In this document: positions 46,430-57,842 of the stretch, in pieces | Numbering within the stretch: the first letter of the stretch is position 1 | Layout: every line of letters begins with the position of its first letter | NCBI RefSeq assembly: GCF_017939745.1 | Contig: NZ_JAGKQQ010000002.1 | Coordinates: 124,001-188,000 of the forward strand | Direction: 5' to 3' | Source of the DNA: Gemmata palustris | GTDB taxonomy: Bacteria; Planctomycetota; Planctomycetia; Gemmatales; Gemmataceae | DNA: 64,000 nt | Position numbers and translations under genes: made by a program | Notes under the pieces: generated by a model | What the model saw: only the letters and a program-made list of their open reading frames with translations | What the model was told of the DNA's origin: nothing | Database searches by the model: none

Positions 46430-46768
46430 ATGGGCGAACTGCGGCCGGCAAACGTGATCGCGTTCGGGTTGTTGGGGCTGTTCGTAGCGGCGCTCGTTGT
46501 GACCGGAATTGTCAAGGCCCGGCGCGGGGGCGAGCACGCCAACCGCGAGGAGGAGCGCCGCCCGCGCTCGATGGCGGCCGAGGGTGATCCGGCCCTCACG
46601 GACTGGTTCCGAAACATGGACCGGAACACCGACGGGAAGCTCACGCGAGCCGAATTCATCGGGACCAATGAGCAGTTCAAGCGGATCGACACGGACGGCA
46701 ACGGCGAAATCTCGCCCGCCGAAGCCCGCGCCGCGGACGACTGGTTCCGCCACCTCGTGCCCAACTGA
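46430..46768 (+). CDS. Membrane-anchored EF-hand protein
   Basis: 112 residues. A membrane helix at about 8-28 (VIAFGLLGLFVAALVVTGIV) is followed by a basic/acidic linker and two calcium-binding loops, DRNTDGKLTRAEF near residue 64 and DTDGNGEISPAEA near 88. Both have Asp, Asn or Asp, Asp, and Glu or Ala-Glu at the right positions. It probably binds calcium outside the cytoplasm. The partner is unknown. It is divergent from the nucleotide-sugar operon. Confidence 0.8.
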   Translation: MGELRPANVIAFGLLGLFVAALVVTGIVKARRGGEHANREEERRPRSMAAEGDPALTDWFRNMDRNTDGKLTRAEFIGTNEQFKRIDTDGNGEISPAEARAADDWFRHLVPN

Positions 46769-47159: not shown

Positions 47160-47594
47160 CTACTCCACGGGCGCTGGCGCGGGCACCAGTTGCACGTCGG
47201 CCAAATCGAGCTTGCGCCCGTCTTCCGATCGCAGTTCTAGCTGAACGCGCTTTCCCTTCTTGCGGTCCACGAGCGCGAACTCGGACTCCCCGCACCCCCA
47301 CTGCCCCAGTGCGACCAACACGAGCAGTAGCCCCCTCCCCTTCTCCGTAAGCACGTACTCCTTGTATGCACTCCCGTCGGACGCGGGGACCATTTCCAGC
47401 ACCCCGTCGGCGACCAGTTTCTTGAGCCGCACCGTGAGGATGTTCTTCGCCACACCCAGGCTCGTCTGGAACTCCCCGAACCGCTTCTTCCCGGTAAACG
47501 CATCCCGCACAATCAACAGCGCCCACCAGTCGCCCACCGTGTCCAACGACCGCGCAATCGGGCACTCCTCCTTCGCGAAACTCGTGCGTTTCAT
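47160..47594 (-). CDS. HxlR-family transcriptional regulator
   Basis: 144 residues. The start is ATG 47594, fixed by the ribosome site GGAGGGAG just upstream. A longer frame to 47639 would run through the operator. CPIARSLDTVGDWWALLIVR near residue 12 is the HxlR hallmark, with the conserved Cys that can serve as a redox or aldehyde sensor. The winged helix-turn-helix follows (RFGEFQTSLGVAKNILTVRL, KKLVADGVLEMV, YVLTEKGRGL). The C-terminal 45 residues extend beyond the usual 110-residue family length. The promoter and two matching palindromes just upstream suggest autoregulation. Confidence 0.9.
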   Translation of the reverse strand: MKRTSFAKEECPIARSLDTVGDWWALLIVRDAFTGKKRFGEFQTSLGVAKNILTVRLKKLVADGVLEMVPASDGSAYKEYVLTEKGRGLLLVLVALGQWGCGESEFALVDRKKGKRVQLELRSEDGRKLDLADVQLVPAPAPVE

Positions 47595-47618
47595 GGCTCC
47601 CTCCGAATATTCCGAGCT

Positions 47619-47635
47619 GGTTGCAAGATGCAACC
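47619..47635. promoter_or_regulatory. Operator 1 for the HxlR regulator
   Basis: The perfect palindrome GGTTGCAAGATGCAACC (7-bp arms, three-base centre) lies just downstream of the -10 box on the minus strand, between promoter and start codon. It shares GTTGCAA-N3-GCAACC with operator 2. Confidence 0.6.
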
Positions 47636-47643
47636 ACACTTTC

Positions 47644-47854: not shown

Positions 47855-50800
47855 ATGGACGCGGTCGATACACCGGTTCCAGGTCGCTATCCGCACCGCC
47901 GCGCTCGCCGCGCGGCGCTCCGGGCACTCGTGATGTTCCTGCCGCTCGCGTGCGTACTCACGCTGTGCGCGGTGGTCGCCTACGCCAACCAGCCGCCCGC
48001 GGTCAGCGCGCCCAAGTCGGCGGTACTCCCGGCCGCCGGGGACGGTACCCGCGACCCCAAGAACCCCGAGTGGTCCACGGACCCGGCCGACCCGTTCCCG
48101 ATGCCCCCGGAACTCGCCAACGTCGAGCTGATGAAGCAGACGCACGAAGAGGCCTACGCCAAGTCCGCCGGGTGCATGGTGTGCCACAAGGGGGTCGGCG
48201 ACCCGCACGGCAAGGACACGCTCCGCATCGGCTGCACCGACTGCCACGGCGGGGACGCCTCGTGTACCGACAAGAACAAGGCGCACGTCCTGCCGAAGAT
48301 GCCCCAGTTCTGGACCAGCACCGCCAACCCGGTGCGGTCCTACACGCTGCTCAACAACGAATCGCCCGCGTTCGTCCGGTTCATCAACCCCGGCGATTTC
48401 CGCATCGCGCACATCAGTTGCGGTACCAGCGGGTGCCACCCCAAAGAGGTGCAAACGAACCGCAAGCAGATCATGAACACGGGCTGCATGTTGCTCGGGG
48501 CCGCGGCGTACAACAACGGCACGCTCCCGGTGAAGCGCTCGATCATCGGCGAGGCCTACGGCATGAACGGCGCCCCGCTGATGCTCAAAACGTACCCGCC
48601 GCCCACGCCGGAAGAAGAGAAGCGCGGGGTGGTGGCCCAACTCGTGCCGCTCCCGCGGTTCGAGATGAGCCAGCCCGGTAACGTGCTGCGGATCTTCGAG
48701 CCGGGCGGCCGGTTCCTGCCCGAAATCGGCATCCCGGAAATGAAAGACGAGCCGGGGCGCACGCGCGTCCGGCTCAGCCTCCGCGGGCTGGGCACCAGCA
48801 ACCGGACCGACCCCGTGCTCGTGAGCGCGAACAAGACGCGCCTCTTCGACCCCACGCTGAACTTCCTGGGCACCAACGACAACCCCGGCGACTACCGCAG
48901 CAGCGGGTGCTCGGCGTGCCACGTGGCCTACGCGAACGACCGGTCCCCGGTCCACTCCGGGCCGTTCGCCAAGTACGGCAACCGCGGGACCAGTTTCAGC
49001 GACGACCCGACCATTCCGAAGAACGAACCGGGCCACCCGATCGAGCACAAGTTCACCAACTCGATCCCGACCAGCCAGTGCATGGTGTGCCACATCCACC
49101 CCGGCACCACGGTCATGAACAGTTACATCGGGTACATGTGGTACGACGAGGAGTCGGACGGGAAACACATGTACCCGGCGAAGCAGAAGAACCCGACGTC
49201 GGAAGAACTGATCCGCTCGATGCTGCGGAACCCGAACGAGTCCGCGGCGCGCGGGCACCTGTCCGATCCGCAGTTCACCGCGGACCTCGTGAACCTGAAC
49301 CCGCACTTATCGAAGAACCACTTCGCGGACTTTCACAGCCACGGCTGGGCGTTCCGCGCGGTGTTCAAGAAGGACAAGAAGGGCAACTACATCGACCACG
49401 CCGGCGGGTTCGTCGGTCCGCCCACCGCGGAGAAGATGGCCGCGGGCGTCGACTGGCCGAACCAGGCCCGCAAGTTCCACCAGGACACGAAGTTCCCGGA
49501 CCCGAAGACCGGCTCGCAGGCCGCTCGGGAAGCCGAAACCAAGCTCAACGACTCGTGTCGCGCCGGGAAGCCCGTTCACATGATGGACATCCACATGGAG
49601 AAGGGGATGCACTGCGTGGACTGCCACTTCTCGCAGGACATGCACGGCAACAACCGGCTCCACATGGAGGTGCGGGCCGCGATCGAGATCCAGTGCGTGG
49701 ACTGCCACGGCACCGCGGGCACCCACGCCACGCTGAAGACGTCCGGCCCCGCGAGCTACACCTCCGCGCCCGACGGGAAGGGGCGGAACCTGCTCGCCAT
49801 GAAGACGCCGTTCGGCACACCGCGGTTCGAGATCCGCGAGGCCCCGGACGGCACCAAGCGCTATTTCCAGAACTCCAGTGTCGAGAAGGGACTGCAGTGG
49901 GAACTGGTGCAGACGAAGGACACCATTACAAAGGGCCACGCTCGGTACAACGAGAAGGCCGCGCTTGCGAAGACCGTCCGCGTCGATAAGGCCAGCGGCA
50001 AAATGGTGTGGGGCGACTTGCCCGCCGACGGCGCGAGCTGTGCCCACTCCAACGACAACATGAGCTGCATGACGTGCCACTCGGCCTGGAACCCGAGCTG
50101 CTTCGGGTGCCACTTACCGCAGCGGGCCAACATGAAGATGCCGACGCTCCACGCGGACGGGGGCGTGCAGCGGAACTACACCGCGTACAACTTCCAGACG
50201 CTGCGGGACTGCACGTACATGCTCGCCCGCGACGGCGACGTGACGGGCAACAAGATCAACCCGGCCCGGTCCAGTTGCGCGATCCACGTGGGGTCGCACA
50301 ACGGGAACCGCGAGGGGATCTACGTACAGCAGCCGACGATCTCGGCCGAGGGCTTCGGCGGCATCGCGTTCAGCACGAACGTGCCGCACACGGTCCGCGG
50401 GCGCGGGGTGGGCGAGACCAAGCAGTGCAGCGACTGCCACCTCTCGAAGAAGAACGACAACAACGCGTGGATGGCCCAGTTGCTCATGCACGGCACCGGG
50501 TTCATGAACTTCGTCGGCAAGTACGCCTGGGTCGGGGCCGGCGAGGAGGGACTGTTCGCGGTGCAGGTGACGGAAAGCACCGAGCCCCAAGCGGTGTTCG
50601 GCAGCGACATGCACTACTACGCCTACCCGGACAACTACAAGAAGCACGCCGAGAAGGGCGGGCTCTTGAAGAACGCGCACGAGCACCCGGGGCGCGACAT
50701 CGCGACCGGTGCGAGCCGGCCGTTCAAGAAGTCCGAGGTGCTGATGGTGCAGAACCGCGGGGAGTACCTGTACGCCGCGTGCGGCGAGGGCGGGGTCCGC

Positions 50801-51892
50801 GTGTTCGACATCGCGTTCATCGACGACAAGGCGTTCGCCGAGCGCATCACGACCGCGCCGGTCTCGCCGGTCGGCCAGAAGTTCTACCTCGATACGAAGT
50901 ACGCGACCTACGTCGCGGCCCCGACGACGGTGCCGGTGGACCCGACCCGCACGCACATGGAGGGCAACAAGGAACAGAAGGTCCACCCGCTGTTCGGGTA
51001 CCTCTACGTCTGCGACAAGTACGAGGGGCTGATCCTGACCGGGGCCGCGACCACCATCGACGGCAACCCGGTGAACAACTTCTTGAAGAAGGAAGTGTGC
51101 TTCAACCCGGACGGGCTCCTGTACGACGCCAAGCACGCGGTGGTCCACGGGCACTACGTTTACGTGTCGTGCGCCGCGGGCCTCGTGGTGATCGACATTG
51201 ATGACCCGAAGAAGCCGAAGGTGACCTCGGTCATCGGCGAGAAGCACGTGAAGCACCCGCACATGGTCGCGACGCAGTTCCGCTACGCCTACGTGTGCGA
51301 CGAGGAGGGCGTGAAGGTTCTGGACATCACCGACCCGGCCAAGCCCGTTCCGAAGTCGATGATCCGGCTCCCGGAAGCGCACAGCGTCTACCTGGCCCGC
51401 ACCTACGCCTACGTTGCGGCCGGTTCGCGGGGGCTGGTGATCCTCGACATCCAGAACGCCGAGGAGCCGAAGGTCGATCAGGTGTACAGCGCCGGCGGGC
51501 ACATCAACGACGCCCACGATGTGAAACTCGGCATCACGTACAACAGCCTGTTCGCGTACATCGCGGACGGGAAGAACGGGATGCGGATCGTTCAACTGAT
51601 GTCGCCGGAAACGCCGGGGTACGAGGGCTTCGGGCCGCGCCCGACCCCGCGCCTGGTGGCGACGTACCGGTTGCCGCACGGCGGGCACATCAAGAGCGTG
51701 GCCCGCGGACTCGACCGCGACCGCGCGGTGGACGAGAACGGGAACCAGATCGGGGTGTTCGGCCGGGTGGGTGCGCGCCCACTGAACGACCAGGAACAAC
51801 GAAAAATGTACCTGCGCGACGGAGTGCCGTGGTTCGTGAGCGACAACCCGAAGGAACCAGGGATGTACGAAGAGCGCCGAAGTAAGAAATAA
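47855..51892 (+). CDS. Multiheme c-type cytochrome fused to an LVIVD beta-propeller
   Basis: 1345 residues, with ribosome site GGGGGGAG. Residues about 20-43 are an uncleaved-looking signal anchor. Nine CxxCH haem sites are at residues 107, 127, 352, 409, 587, 614, 738, 749 and 858, and one CGTSGCH (CX4CH) at 189, so up to ten haems. Many extra His (NNRLHMEVR, MMDIHMEKGMH) can act as distal ligands. From about 880 to 1300 are at least six LVIVD-type blades such as YVYVSCAAGLVVIDIDDPKK and YAYVAAGSRGLVILDI, expected to form a propeller. It is probably a periplasmic or surface electron-transfer protein; the redox partner is unknown. It converges with the copper-type protein gene. Confidence 0.88.
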   Translation: MDAVDTPVPGRYPHRRARRAALRALVMFLPLACVLTLCAVVAYANQPPAVSAPKSAVLPAAGDGTRDPKNPEWSTDPADPFPMPPELANVELMKQTHEEAYAKSAGCMVCHKGVGDPHGKDTLRIGCTDCHGGDASCTDKNKAHVLPKMPQFWTSTANPVRSYTLLNNESPAFVRFINPGDFRIAHISCGTSGCHPKEVQTNRKQIMNTGCMLLGAAAYNNGTLPVKRSIIGEAYGMNGAPLMLKTYPPPTPEEEKRGVVAQLVPLPRFEMSQPGNVLRIFEPGGRFLPEIGIPEMKDEPGRTRVRLSLRGLGTSNRTDPVLVSANKTRLFDPTLNFLGTNDNPGDYRSSGCSACHVAYANDRSPVHSGPFAKYGNRGTSFSDDPTIPKNEPGHPIEHKFTNSIPTSQCMVCHIHPGTTVMNSYIGYMWYDEESDGKHMYPAKQKNPTSEELIRSMLRNPNESAARGHLSDPQFTADLVNLNPHLSKNHFADFHSHGWAFRAVFKKDKKGNYIDHAGGFVGPPTAEKMAAGVDWPNQARKFHQDTKFPDPKTGSQAAREAETKLNDSCRAGKPVHMMDIHMEKGMHCVDCHFSQDMHGNNRLHMEVRAAIEIQCVDCHGTAGTHATLKTSGPASYTSAPDGKGRNLLAMKTPFGTPRFEIREAPDGTKRYFQNSSVEKGLQWELVQTKDTITKGHARYNEKAALAKTVRVDKASGKMVWGDLPADGASCAHSNDNMSCMTCHSAWNPSCFGCHLPQRANMKMPTLHADGGVQRNYTAYNFQTLRDCTYMLARDGDVTGNKINPARSSCAIHVGSHNGNREGIYVQQPTISAEGFGGIAFSTNVPHTVRGRGVGETKQCSDCHLSKKNDNNAWMAQLLMHGTGFMNFVGKYAWVGAGEEGLFAVQVTESTEPQAVFGSDMHYYAYPDNYKKHAEKGGLLKNAHEHPGRDIATGASRPFKKSEVLMVQNRGEYLYAACGEGGVRVFDIAFIDDKAFAERITTAPVSPVGQKFYLDTKYATYVAAPTTVPVDPTRTHMEGNKEQKVHPLFGYLYVCDKYEGLILTGAATTIDGNPVNNFLKKEVCFNPDGLLYDAKHAVVHGHYVYVSCAAGLVVIDIDDPKKPKVTSVIGEKHVKHPHMVATQFRYAYVCDEEGVKVLDITDPAKPVPKSMIRLPEAHSVYLARTYAYVAAGSRGLVILDIQNAEEPKVDQVYSAGGHINDAHDVKLGITYNSLFAYIADGKNGMRIVQLMSPETPGYEGFGPRPTPRLVATYRLPHGGHIKSVARGLDRDRAVDENGNQIGVFGRVGARPLNDQEQRKMYLRDGVPWFVSDNPKEPGMYEERRSKK

Positions 51893-52013
51893 GACACGGG
51901 GGTTCCACCCTGTGCTACGGACGACGGCCCCTCCGGGGCGAAGACAAGGAAGCCCCTGTTCTTCGCCCCGGAGGGGCCGTCGTCCGTAGCACAGGGTGGA
52001 ACCCCCGTGTCTT
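51891..52013. repeat. 54-bp perfect inverted repeat between convergent redox genes
   Basis: Arms at 51891-51944 and 51960-52013 are exact reverse complements (starting AAGACACGGGGGTTCCACCC), with a 15-base loop. The left arm includes the last two bases of the cytochrome stop codon, and the right arm ends 26 bases before the stop of the opposite gene. It can act as a bidirectional terminator, but the stem is far longer than needed and lacks a T-run. Confidence 0.85.
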
Positions 52014-52038
52014 CATTCAACCTGTGATTTCATTCGAC

Positions 52039-52827
52039 TTACTTCGGGCTCACATCGAACTCGGTCGGCTTCACTTCGGTCGTCGGGCCGGTGATCTCGA
52101 TCGGCTCGCCGGCGCGCCCCTTGGCCCCGCCGCGGACGCCGTTCTCGTGCCAGTACACGATGCGGAACTTCCCGGCCGGGGCGTTCTTGATCTCGAACTT
52201 CCCGTCCTCGTCGGTGATCGCGTAGTACGGGTGGTCGAAGATGCGGACGTAACCCGTCATCCAGCCGTGAATGGTACATTTGTACTGGATCGGGGTGTTT
52301 TCCTTCACCAGCGGGTCGGGGAGCTTCCACTCCTCTTGCTTCGGGACGGTCTTGTTGTGGGTGCCGTTGTTGGCGGTGTCCCAGAAGAAGTTGTGCGCGA
52401 CCGGGGCGGAGTTCTTCACCACGAGCTTGTCACCGACGCGGGCCACCGAGACGCGCGGGCCGAACATGCAGCACGGCTGGTCGATGACCAGTTCGCCGGG
52501 CTTCCGCTTCGCGTCGTCCGGGTGAATCTTGTCCTTCGGGAACTCGGCCTTCAGATCCGTGTCGTCGGGGCGCAGGAACACCACCACGTTCTTGATGCCC
52601 TTGCTCTTCGGGTTCACGAGGACGGACTCGTCGAGCAGGTCGCCCTTGCTGGTGCAGTGCTCCTTGTCCTGGGTGACGTTGAGCGTCGCGCGCTTCGGCA
52701 GCTCCTTGTCCTTCGGGAACACCACTTGGCCCTTGATCGTCGCCCATTTTTCTTGAGCGTTCGCGGCGCTCCCGGGGCCGATGAACACGGCCGCGGCGAA
52801 CAGCGCGGAAAAGACGAACCGTTGCAT
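52039..52827 (-). CDS. Secreted cupredoxin-like (type-1 copper) protein
   Basis: 262 residues from the ATG at 52827, with GGAG ten bases upstream; TTG 52836 is less likely. A signal peptide ends near residue 24 (SAANAQEK). Residues about 120-195 form a plastocyanin-like segment: VGDKLVVKNSAPVAHNFFW supplies His145, and IQYKCTIHGWMTGYVRIF supplies Cys184, His187 and Met190, a complete type-1 copper set. After it comes a small carboxypeptidase-regulatory-like beta-domain (DEDGKFEIKNAPAGKFRIVY). An additional CC pair is at DQPCCMF. It probably carries electrons in the periplasm, and the facing multiheme cytochrome is a natural partner. Copper loading is unproved. Confidence 0.82.
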   Translation of the reverse strand: MQRFVFSALFAAAVFIGPGSAANAQEKWATIKGQVVFPKDKELPKRATLNVTQDKEHCTSKGDLLDESVLVNPKSKGIKNVVVFLRPDDTDLKAEFPKDKIHPDDAKRKPGELVIDQPCCMFGPRVSVARVGDKLVVKNSAPVAHNFFWDTANNGTHNKTVPKQEEWKLPDPLVKENTPIQYKCTIHGWMTGYVRIFDHPYYAITDEDGKFEIKNAPAGKFRIVYWHENGVRGGAKGRAGEPIEITGPTTEVKPTEFDVSPK

Positions 52828-53107
52828 CAGGAGCAACTCCAGATTGGGAAAGGGGAATTGGGCGGGGACGGCGGGAACCTATCTTGCCTATTGTTCTGCG
52901 GAAGTGTCCAGACGGCAACCGGGGGCGCGAGTTTGGCGCCCGGTATTTCGCTCGCGTTTCGGGAACCGCGGCACGAATCCGGGTTCCTGGCCAGTTACCG
53001 GACTCGTTGCAGAATAGCGGCCGCTTGGCTATTTGGGCGGCATGGCGGGTTCCGAGAAACTGGTCAGTTCATTGCACTCAAAAACACAGCCCCGGTGCCG
53101 CACACCG

Positions 53108-55006: not shown

Positions 55007-55037
55007 GCCCGTGCCCCGGGCGGTACCGGGGCTATTT
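55001..55037. terminator. Terminator between convergent genes
   Basis: GCCCCGG (55013-55019) pairs with CCGGGGC (55026-55032) around a six-base loop, and outer AATAG/CTATT pairs extend it. It lies at the 3' ends of two convergent genes and overlaps the stop of the reverse-strand gene. Confidence 0.6.
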
Positions 55038-56420
55038 CGCCAGGGGGGGCTCGTCGCCCGGCTTCACGATCGTGATCCGGAGCGCCGGGCGCTGGCCCCG
55101 AACCGATTTCGTGCCGGGCACCACGGGCGCCCCCGCACCGAACGCGACCTTTGCGGCCGGCGCAGAGGGTTGGGGCGCAGCCGTCCGCGTTTGCATCTCG
55201 GCCAGCTTCGCTTCGGCCTTCGCCTTTTCTGCTTTCAATTTCACCGGATCGAGCCACGCGGTCTGGTTGGTCGGCGGTTCTCCCTCCCCGGTCGCCGGGG
55301 GAATCGGCGCGTGCTCCGAACTCAGTGCGGGCATCATCGCCGTGGGCGCGCTCGCCATCGCGTCGCCATCGAGTGCGAAAACGTCCCCCGCGGCAACCGG
55401 GGGGCCGGGCACCAGTCCGTCGAAGTCGAACACCTTCGCGTAGTCGATCGTTTTGACCGGCGCCGGCGGCTCGGACGGAATGACCTCGGCGTCGATTACT
55501 TCCGCTTCGATCACTTCCGCTTCGATCACTTCGGCGTCAATCACTTCGGCTTCGATCACTTCCGCTTCGACCACTTCGGCAGGGATCGGTTCGCGTGCGG
55601 CTTTCCACTTCGCGACGATCCGCTCCTGGAGCCGCAAAATACCGCTCACGCTCTTGATGTGCAGTCGGGAGCACTTTTGCCGGGCGCTCTGGAGCTGGTT
55701 CATGAACTTGCCGGTCCACCCCTTTGCGTAATCGGGGGGCGGTTCGGCCACCAACTTGTCTTCGAGGATGAAGTCCCCGAGGTCGGCGCACTCCTCAAAA
55801 TACGTCAGCGCCGGCAGGTCGGTCTCGCGCGCCTCCTTGACGATTCCCTTGAGGGCCTTCCACGAATCCCGGAGCACCCGGACCACGTCATCAACGAACT
55901 CCGGGCCGAGGTCGATTTCGTCACGCTCGTTCTTCGCGTGGGCGGCGAGGTAGGCGTCCGCCTTCGTGAACGCGGCCCGGACCTTCTGGTAGAACCGCTG
56001 GACCTCCAACTGGAGCCGGTACCGCTCGACCAGTTCCTCCCGCAACTTCTTGTCCACCCGGTTGGCCATCTGCACGTGGAGCAGGTACACGCGCCGGTCG
56101 AACGACTCGAACCACTCCCGGTTCTCGGCCCGCTGCTGCTCCACGGTCTCGATCTGGCGCTTCAGTTTGGGCGACGCGCGCCCGACGCCGCTCGCCCGCA
56201 GGTTCTGCACCTCGTCGTACAACTCGTCGTGCTCCACCGCGCGCCGCGCGCACCCGTCGTACAGCTTATCGAGCACCTTTTCCATGCGCTCGTCGGCCCA
56301 CGGGCTCTCGCGCGCGGTGCGGTTGAGTTCGGCCAGGTCGCCGAGTTCGAGCGCGCGCGTCCCGTAGGCGCCCTGGTACTCGTCGGGCGGGAGGTCTTCG
56401 GTCTCGCGGTCTTTCGGCAT
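55032..56420 (-). CDS. Coiled-coil protein with EAEVI repeats
   Basis: 462 residues from the ATG at 56420 (MPKDRETEDLPPDEYQG). The frame is open to 56681, but its upstream part lies inside the divergent gene. The N-terminal 275 residues are highly charged and helical (LYDEVQNLRASGVGRASPKL, KKLREELVERYRLQLEVQRF), consistent with coiled coils. Six EAEVI/DAEVI units in tandem follow at about 280-315, then a Pro/Ala-rich part with VFDFDGLVPGPPVAAGDVFA, and a charged helix (KLKAEKAKAEAKLAEMQ). No enzyme motif was seen. It is probably a structural or scaffolding protein; location unknown. Confidence 0.65.
   Translation of the reverse strand: MPKDRETEDLPPDEYQGAYGTRALELGDLAELNRTARESPWADERMEKVLDKLYDGCARRAVEHDELYDEVQNLRASGVGRASPKLKRQIETVEQQRAENREWFESFDRRVYLLHVQMANRVDKKLREELVERYRLQLEVQRFYQKVRAAFTKADAYLAAHAKNERDEIDLGPEFVDDVVRVLRDSWKALKGIVKEARETDLPALTYFEECADLGDFILEDKLVAEPPPDYAKGWTGKFMNQLQSARQKCSRLHIKSVSGILRLQERIVAKWKAAREPIPAEVVEAEVIEAEVIDAEVIEAEVIEAEVIDAEVIPSEPPAPVKTIDYAKVFDFDGLVPGPPVAAGDVFALDGDAMASAPTAMMPALSSEHAPIPPATGEGEPPTNQTAWLDPVKLKAEKAKAEAKLAEMQTRTAAPQPSAPAAKVAFGAGAPVVPGTKSVRGQRPALRITIVKPGDEPPLAK
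55482..55586 (-). repeat. 15-bp tandem repeat coding EAEVI units
   Basis: Six units of a 15-base pattern (typical unit CACTTCCGCTTCGAT on the plus strand) run from 55482 to 55571, with a degenerate seventh to 55586. The period keeps the reading frame, so copy number can change without breaking the gene. Confidence 0.8.
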
Positions 56421-56537
56421 GGCGCCCGACGGCTCGCGCCGCCCTGTGTAAGGGGAATCGGTATGTATTCTTAGACGATGGCGGGGCTGAAGGCGTCTGT
56501 CAACCCCGCGGGAACAATGTGGCGCGCGGAGTGCGGA

Positions 56538-57842
56538 ATGCGCAACGAAAGTCAGCAACCCCCGAACCCGAGCGCGGCCCCCAATTGGGGCGCGGCCCGC
56601 GCCCGGATCGTCCTCGATCCGACCGTCACAATGCTCAACACCGGTTCGTTCGGGCCGCTCCCGCGCCCGGTGTTCGACCACGCCACCGCGCTACGGTTGC
56701 GGCTCGCGGCCGGGCCGACGGACTTCTTCGTCCGACAAGCCCCACCACTATTATGGGAGGCGCGCGAGCGCACCGCGGCGTTCCTCGGCACGAAACCGCA
56801 CCGGCTCGTCTTCACCACGAACGTGTCCGCGGCGATCAACTTGGTCGCGTCCGGGCTTCGGTTGAACGCGCCCGGCGAGATCCTGATGTCGGACCACGAG
56901 TACGGCGCGATGATCTGGTGCTGGGAGCGCGTCGCGCAGCGCCAGGGGCTCACGATCCGCACGTTCCCGCTCCCCACGATGGCAACCGACCCCGGTGCGA
57001 TCGTCGAGGCCGCAACAAAAGCCATGTCCGCGCGCACGCGACTGCTGTTCTTCAGCCACGTCCTGTCGCCGACGGGCCTAGTTCTCCCGGCCCAGGAACT
57101 GTGTGCAGAAGCCCGGAAGCGCGGAATTATGACGGTCGTAGACGGCGCGCACGCGCCCGTTTACATCCCGCTCAACGTGTCCGACGTGAACGCGGACTTC
57201 TACACCGCGAACCTGCACAAGTGGCTACTCGCGCCGAGCGGCGCGGGGTTCCTGGTGATCGGCCCCGGCAACGAGGACCGCTTGCAACCACTCCACGTGA
57301 GTTGGGGATACTATGCGGACAAATACCCCCTTGGAGCGGCCGTGAAGCCCGGCTCGGCGGGCGACAGGCCGCGAGACACGACGAACGAGCTAAGGCCGTC
57401 CGCTGGCCCGGACGCGCGCGACAATTACGGCAGTACCCCGCGCACCCGGTTCCTGGAGTTTGAAGGCACGCGCGACATCTGCCCGTGGCTCGCGGTGCCC
57501 ACTGCGATCGACTTCCAGGCCGAACTCGGATTCGACGCCGTGCGCGGGCGCATCGCGGAACTGGCAGAGTACACGCGCAAGGTGATCGGCGGCACCGGCC
57601 TGCCGCTCGCGACCCCGACCACCCCGGGAATGTGCGGCGCGATGACTGCGTTTGAACTACCGCCCGGTCTCAGTGCCCCGGCGCTGCGAAAGGAGTTCTG
57701 GGCGCGGCGCGTGGAAATCCCCGTGATCGAGCGCCCGAACCGCTCGCTGGTCCGCGTGAGCCACCACTTCTACACGACCGAGGGCGAAATCGACCGACTG
57801 GCGGAAGTGCTACCCGAAGTCCTGGCCGCGAGCCGGGGGTGA
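56538..57842 (+). CDS. PLP-dependent aminotransferase class V, isopenicillin-N-epimerase-like
   Basis: 434 residues from the ATG at 56538; another in-frame ATG is at 56478, but the first 20 residues from it look non-coding. MLNTGSFGPLPRPV is the usual substrate-side N-terminus. FTTNVSAAINLVASGL contacts PLP, VVDGAHAPVYIPLN provides the Asp/His pair, and ANLHKWLLAPSGAGFLVI contains the PLP lysine. Members of this group (CefD-like) are mostly racemases, epimerases or desulfurases, so the reaction is not certain. An insert of about 45 residues before PRTRFLEFEGTRDICPWL is rich in Gly, Arg and Asp. The gene is divergent from the EAEVI-repeat gene. Confidence 0.82.
   Translation: MRNESQQPPNPSAAPNWGAARARIVLDPTVTMLNTGSFGPLPRPVFDHATALRLRLAAGPTDFFVRQAPPLLWEARERTAAFLGTKPHRLVFTTNVSAAINLVASGLRLNAPGEILMSDHEYGAMIWCWERVAQRQGLTIRTFPLPTMATDPGAIVEAATKAMSARTRLLFFSHVLSPTGLVLPAQELCAEARKRGIMTVVDGAHAPVYIPLNVSDVNADFYTANLHKWLLAPSGAGFLVIGPGNEDRLQPLHVSWGYYADKYPLGAAVKPGSAGDRPRDTTNELRPSAGPDARDNYGSTPRTRFLEFEGTRDICPWLAVPTAIDFQAELGFDAVRGRIAELAEYTRKVIGGTGLPLATPTTPGMCGAMTAFELPPGLSAPALRKEFWARRVEIPVIERPNRSLVRVSHHFYTTEGEIDRLAEVLPEVLAASRG

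Follow-up and report, generated by a model that had tools for sequence, protein, structure and literature searches.

Which protein does a ten-haem cytochrome of the planctomycete Gemmata palustris work with? The question arises from two convergent genes, one for this cytochrome and one for a copper protein, in a window of 64,000 nt (the whole stretch of DNA analysed: forward-strand positions 124,001 to 188,000 of contig NZ_JAGKQQ010000002.1, assembly GCF_017939745.1). Coordinates without a prefix are window positions, and the window's genome is G000. A first interpretation made without database searches, here called the sequence-only reading, had proposed that the two proteins form a periplasmic or surface electron-transfer pair. 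Both open reading frames (ORFs) were confirmed, and their coordinates are listed in Table 1. We consider it reasonably probable that this cytochrome makes up a conduit of the porin-cytochrome type together with a second protein, of about 700 residues, for which we infer a barrel fold and a place in the outer membrane.

Haem sites and propeller of the cytochrome

The cytochrome contains exactly nine CX2CH motifs and one CX4CH motif, as the sequence-only reading had counted. The same set is present in all 30 cytochromes that we extracted, the window's included, from 30 of 34 positive genomes (the other four gave partial or split matches); that of G027 has an additional CX3CH. Because all ten sites are kept in 30 of 30 sequences, the predicted haem sites are not chance occurrences. 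A larger alignment of 116 sequences combined these 30 with 86 of 108 loci, some genomes being represented twice; the 22 loci with a frame of at most 1150 residues, the majority truncated where the locus ends, were excluded. Here 1157 of 1160 haem-site cells were filled, the three empty ones belonging to L144 (one) and L173 (two). Site 3 is CX4CH in 80 sequences and CX2CH in 36, so that the odd motif very likely does mark a haem site; at site 1, a single sequence has CX4CH. With ten conserved sites, this multihaem c-type cytochrome has haems enough to span a membrane. Seventeen histidines outside the motifs are conserved in more than 90% of the 116 cytochromes and would suffice for bis-histidine ligation of all ten haems.

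The propeller noticed earlier on the same chain was recovered as LVIVD (PF08309, E 9.1e-17, 60.6 bits against a Pfam gathering score of 20.2), which places it in that family, and LVIVD was found in 18 of 18 scanned members of the cytochrome alignment A1 (E up to 0.01). By eye, the N-terminus is of the Sec type, with AYA before NQPP. Membership in ExtM, a cytochrome of the selenite/tellurite reduction operon (NCBIfam NF040943), was rejected: the match reaches 61.5 bits against a cutoff of 800, its best stretch lying around haem sites 6-7.

The upstream partner and a wider cluster

Clustering of neighbouring genes revealed a family of 47 members (cluster 2, median 701 residues) that is encoded directly upstream of the cytochrome and in the same direction. 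The loci used were the best 80 of at least 568 confirmed stretches from a scan of genome contigs; gene calls were naive (greedy by GC frame), and the neighbour counts include duplicate genomes and some doubtful ORFs. These 80 loci are planctomycetes nearly throughout, with L180, L182 and L184 assigned to Acidobacteria or a class thereof and L111 and L185 named only as 'bacterium'. In profile searches, the upstream gene lay within 1.5 kb of the cytochrome at 43 of the 62 named loci that have at least 1.5 kb of upstream sequence.

The two genes also occur together across genomes. Among 392 genomes drawn evenly across Planctomycetota, the cytochrome profile matched 38 and the partner's profile exactly the same 38 (E up to 1e-50; Fisher 1e-53, relatedness ignored). 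A second sample comprised 199 genomes of the same phylum as G442; this genome, which contains L180, is a Blastocatellia record, and the phylum is therefore Acidobacteriota. Here both profiles matched the same 20 genomes (E up to 1e-50; 1e-30). The cutoffs were our choice, and the top two to five candidates were scored per genome. The partner gene lay upstream on the same strand at a gap of less than 1.6 kb in 32 of the 38 planctomycete and all 20 acidobacterial positives, with median gaps of 207 and 228 bases, respectively. As for the remaining six, the genes are a few kb apart on one contig in G061 and G276, cut at the contig end in G331 and on different contigs in G000, G044 and G325, the window's own genome having its copy unlinked to the cytochrome at G000:C1:4927813-4929561. 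Among 59 near genomes (own included), the cytochrome was found in 34, the partner in 34 and both in 33, with only the cytochrome in G001 and only a partial partner in G037; the cytochrome count is 36 matches less the weak ones in G050 and G054, taken as LVIVD-only, and the match in G007 is partial.

All 47 partner genes encode F, Y or W as the last residue, whereas among 984 other genes called the share is 6.7%. A C-terminal aromatic residue is the usual signal of outer-membrane barrels, and from this feature and its size the partner is probably an outer-membrane beta-barrel. In three Acidobacteriota, four CX2CH motifs lie within the barrel chain itself (L180:7691-9982, L184:5695-8016 and L229), and Cytochrom_CIII was found in both such chains scanned. 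The remaining listed barrels of that phylum have no CX2CH, except L209, which is the L180 genome again.

Further genes accompany the two. In the window's genome, where the cytochrome is elsewhere, the barrel gene is divergent from a gene with an HbpS-like domain (L205:8810-13435), an arrangement seen at many linked loci, also beyond the genus; an HbpS-like representative from linked loci has an additional dockerin match. A third cluster, at about 4790-4803 kb of G000:C1 (L206), encodes cytochromes with five, four and four CX2CH motifs, a ten-CX2CH protein, a hydrophobic putative membrane protein (recognised by eye), a NuoE-NuoF-like protein with a Complex1_51K match at E 1.9e-38, and a cNMP/4Fe-4S/2Fe-2S protein. 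The profile of the ten-CX2CH protein (A5, E 1e-30) matched 21 of the 392 genomes, of which 20 belong to the 38 with the cytochrome, and 35 of the 59 near genomes, 33 of which have the cytochrome. In G016, the cytochrome, the trio of four- and five-haem cytochromes, the putative membrane protein, the decahaem protein, the NuoEF-like and Fe-S/cNMP proteins, the HbpS-like protein and the barrel are all encoded on one contig, in a stretch of about 27.5 kb (L091, L249, L208). The scattered pieces in other congeners look like the remains of one ancestral cluster.

The main competing account, which we regard as unlikely, casts the cytochrome as a multihaem redox enzyme for some soluble periplasmic substrate and the upstream protein as a porin that does no more than admit this substrate. 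Two cysteines beyond the haem motifs are indeed conserved (C808 in 110 and C976 in 104 of the 116 sequences), the long invariant stretches between haems are more enzyme-like than a bare wire would suggest, and the below-cutoff match to ExtM points the same way. Against this, the conserved histidines outside the motifs are enough to ligate every haem on both sides, and the associated multihaem cytochromes and haem-bearing barrel chains fit a conduit better than an enzyme.

The copper protein and its convergent gap

The sequence-only reading had credited the convergent neighbour with a full His/Cys/His/Met copper set, and H148, C187, H190 and M193 (CX2HX2M) proved invariant in 26 aligned sequences, picked from 30 loci returned by a family search. 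Haem and copper sites, whose absence from orthologues would have spoken against the proposed pair, are thus both conserved. An AlphaFold2 model built from the 26 sequences (pLDDT 88.8) has a cupredoxin core at residues 112-201 that aligned with Cupredoxin_1, nitrosocyanin, plastocyanin and amicyanin entries at Z about 10-12, among the matches listed. By sequence and model, the protein qualifies as a type-1 copper cupredoxin with predicted copper binding. It shares its fold with amicyanin and plastocyanin over 81-97 residues among those matches, and its CX2HX2M loop is of the amicyanin type. What sets it apart from them is an N-terminal extension in which C61 is conserved, the residue C123 and a small beta-domain at the C-terminus. 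That domain, also noted before, does follow the core, its CarboxypepD_reg-like matches all falling below threshold.

A domain homologous to the copper protein is also found fused to an extracytoplasmic function (ECF)-type sigma factor (Sigma70_r2 and r4), at L080:6380-8017 (+) in the window's genome and at L081:9270-10838 (-). In the fused domain a serine replaces the cysteine of CX2HX2M (motif by eye), and the L080 fusion directly precedes a paralogue of the copper protein. Such a fusion is possibly a sensor.

Members of the copper-protein family occur in every one of the 59 genomes searched, the window's among them, and are thus uninformative about the cytochrome. Conservation of the neighbourhood had been named as a check on the pair. 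Among the 19 genomes of the genus (G000-G018), the two genes are convergent neighbours in six, own included (G000, G001, G002, G004, G008 and G010), and lie apart in ten (G003, G005, G006, G009, G011, G012, G013, G014, G016 and G017); contig ends or partial matches made G007, G015 and G018 not scorable. The six and the non-scorable G015 form one clade (support 100/99, tree of 28 cytochromes), and beyond it the neighbourhood is conserved in no genome that could be scored. In nine congeners and in G025, which has no cytochrome match, the copper gene faces pyrG convergently; at L066 and L067, in genomes G019 and G036, this gene or its relative is likewise convergent with pyrG. The other five pair genomes retain IMPase and ROK genes on the copper gene's far side, as do several genomes of the pyrG type, and the cytochrome gene therefore seems to have replaced pyrG beside the copper gene, at a breakpoint. 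In the window's own genome, the genes on the far side are different too. In six congeners (G003, G005, G006, G012, G016 and G017), the cytochrome gene converges on the four- to five-haem cytochrome genes, the G003 contig holding only part of this trio and G016 having two doubtful ORFs in between.

Two simple histories were rejected. A reciprocal exchange of pyrG and the five-haem gene is contradicted by the lack of a pyrG match in L206 and L240-L244, the stretches around the four- to five-haem cluster in the six pair genomes (L243 ends before these genes), and an ancestral cytochrome-cupredoxin unit by the restriction to a single subclade and the copper gene facing pyrG elsewhere.

That the two proteins exchange electrons and are kept together for this reason is, in our judgement, very improbable. 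In favour of this, both proteins are predicted to be exported and redox-active, six genomes keep the pair, and the window's genome keeps it even though clustering matched its flanking genes, on either side, to none from the other five. Still, the pair arose once, within one subclade, genomes with and without the cytochrome have the copper gene facing pyrG, its family occurs in every genome searched, and convergent genes have no common promoter. The copper gene appears to be a chance neighbour after a rearrangement in one Gemmata subclade and to stand outside the electron-conduit system. Of the pair proposed by the sequence-only reading, then, an electron-transfer role for the cytochrome at the periplasm or surface is supported and the pairing with the copper protein is not.

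The convergent gap holds a palindromic element and nothing else, as had been observed. Its arms (51886-51949 and 51955-52018) are 94% complementary, and it may act as a two-way terminator. The element has 107 matches in the genome, many counted on each strand because it is palindromic; the shared hairpin is thus a dispersed repeat, not specific to the pair, and a special terminator for the two genes was rejected. A strong hairpin occurs in the gap of all six pair genomes (L086-L090 being the orthologous gaps) with differing sequences: 23-27 bases are shared in G000/G008, G008/G010 and G001/G004 and at most 10 in other pairs. A census of hairpins with arms of at least 30 nt in 42 loci and the window, nearly all of the genus and some overlapping, counted 9 in convergent, 10 in tandem and 3 in divergent gaps and 4 within genes, convergent gaps making up 12.8 of 74.8 kb of intergenic DNA. 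Such hairpins may mark rearrangement breakpoints.

Table 1. Features of the cytochrome and copper-protein locus in window coordinates
Feature	Positions	Strand	Source
Ten-haem c-type cytochrome carrying an LVIVD propeller at its C-terminus, 1345 aa	47855..51892	+	
Haem site 1, CX2CH, residue 107	48173..48187	+	
Haem site 2, CX2CH, residue 127	48233..48247	+	
Haem site 3, CX4CH, residue 189	48419..48439	+	
Haem site 4, CX2CH, residue 352	48908..48922	+	
Haem site 5, CX2CH, residue 409	49079..49093	+	
Haem site 6, CX2CH, residue 587	49613..49627	+	
Haem site 7, CX2CH, residue 614	49694..49708	+	
Haem site 8, CX2CH, residue 738	50066..50080	+	
Haem site 9, CX2CH, residue 749	50099..50113	+	
Haem site 10, CX2CH, residue 858	50426..50440	+	
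Top-scoring LVIVD stretch of the C-terminal propeller, residues 1092-1121	51128..51217	+	Pfam
133-nt palindromic element, dispersed repeat, in the convergent gap	51886..52018		
Cupredoxin-domain copper protein, 265 aa from TTG (alternative start ATG at 52827)	52039..52836	-	
Predicted copper-ligand motif C187-X2-H190-X2-M193	52258..52278	-	
H148, predicted fourth type-1 copper ligand	52393..52395	-	

Other genes of the window were noted as well. An HxlR-type regulator gene (47160-47639, -) is divergent from the cytochrome gene, 215 bp apart, and formed no cluster with neighbour genes at other loci. Further away, 46430-46768 (+) encodes a small protein with EF-hand motifs and a hydrophobic N-terminal stretch (by eye), and 55032-56681 (-) a predicted protein with a short internal VIEAEVIDAEV-like repeat and no Pfam match at E 0.01.

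A proposed conduit compared with known systems

Starting from the observed haem sites, co-occurrence, linkage and cluster, we propose the following working model. The ten haems would act as a wire carrying electrons through or on the barrel, which would span the outer membrane, and the propeller could serve as a docking surface for a partner or substrate. On the inward side, the ten-haem protein and the three four- to five-haem cytochromes, the putative membrane protein and the NuoEF-like and Fe-S proteins would link the conduit to NADH or quinol. We give an even chance to the claim that this is an undescribed conduit family, distributed across Planctomycetota and Acidobacteriota, in which one decahaem-propeller cytochrome combines with one unclassified barrel; some acidobacterial barrels would be fused to a tetrahaem cytochrome, and many members would draw on an NADH-linked multihaem chain with NuoEF-like proteins. 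That barrel and cytochrome are a lineage-specific package inherited by linkage and have no joint function is the least probable account: their adjacency in most positive genomes of both phylum samples means that joint gain and loss would be expected anyway, but they are also co-present where not adjacent, in 18 of 19 genus genomes (the miss is G001, and the G018 contig is too short to judge adjacency) and in six of the 38 planctomycete positives, G000 among them, and haem-bearing barrel chains exist.

Several observations weigh against the proposed conduit. Nineteen of the 62 loci have no adjacent barrel, though L140 and L146 have one nearby, several of the 19 being Gemmata-type and Limnoglobus records, and 18 of the 38 module genomes gave no A5 match, so this part is not universal. 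A hydrophobicity scan for amphipathic strands in the barrel found no excess over shuffles (z 0.1 to 0.7), a scan with little power, since the beta-rich copper protein also scored low (0.5 to 1.6). The barrel representative had no Pfam match; 26 members gave no Pfam porin match, three having HEAT repeats, two having cytochrome domains and the other matches being single and weak, and NCBIfam yielded a porin match in four of the 26, all below threshold (best E 0.015). On the cytochrome, whose exposure at the surface is putative, no lipobox was evident by eye, and single-sequence structure prediction reached a pLDDT of only 30.9. Homology to MtrA, MtrB or MtrC did not emerge from searches of Protein Data Bank (PDB) chains, in which cytochrome profile A1 had no match at E up to 1 and barrel profile A3 only one unrelated match (E 7.9); the PDB copy searched presumably included the MtrCAB structures, and the barrel is similar in size to MtrB. 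Finally, Gemmata are aerobic heterotrophs.

If the model holds, it would provide aerobic heterotrophs such as Gemmata with a route for extracellular electron exchange, for which minerals, humics and partner cells are candidate partners. Soils and waters harbour large numbers of Planctomycetota and Acidobacteriota, and the perfect co-occurrence of two unclassified families across both phyla makes electron exchange a concrete and testable claim. We found no description of a module of decahaem-propeller cytochrome and barrel in the open-access literature.

Other kinds of porin-cytochrome genes have already been reported from both phyla: Ca. Kuenenia has a Pcc cluster (PMC4245776), metagenome-assembled genomes from a subsea tunnel contain PCC genes (PMC10732223), and Acidobacteriia have PioA/MtoA homologues (PMC10654088). 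The module resembles Pcc of Geobacter (OmbB-OmaB-OmcB) in having the gene of a putative porin-like protein beside that of a multihaem c-type cytochrome and more multihaem cytochromes nearby; two-gene forms occur in Anaeromyxobacter and the planctomycete Ca. Kuenenia, and some outer-membrane Pcc members have atypical CXnCH sites (PMC4245776). The Pcc clusters were identified there by similarity to OmaB, OmbB and OmcB, and the present module is set apart from them by description: it has a single decahaem protein of 1345 aa with a propeller and a barrel that lacks a Pfam porin match. With MtrCAB, PioAB and MtoAB it shares ten haems and, probably, an outer-membrane barrel (PMC10654088). ExtM is likewise a multihaem cytochrome with a weak match, far from that family's cutoff. 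Porin-multiheme clusters of Verrucomicrobia, proposed for electron transfer to humics, differ in their eight-haem cytochromes, whose homologues named there are all from Verrucomicrobia (PMC5615132); compared by description, these clusters offer a parallel within the Planctomycetes-Verrucomicrobia-Chlamydiae (PVC) superphylum, namely a novel porin encoded beside a multihaem cytochrome.

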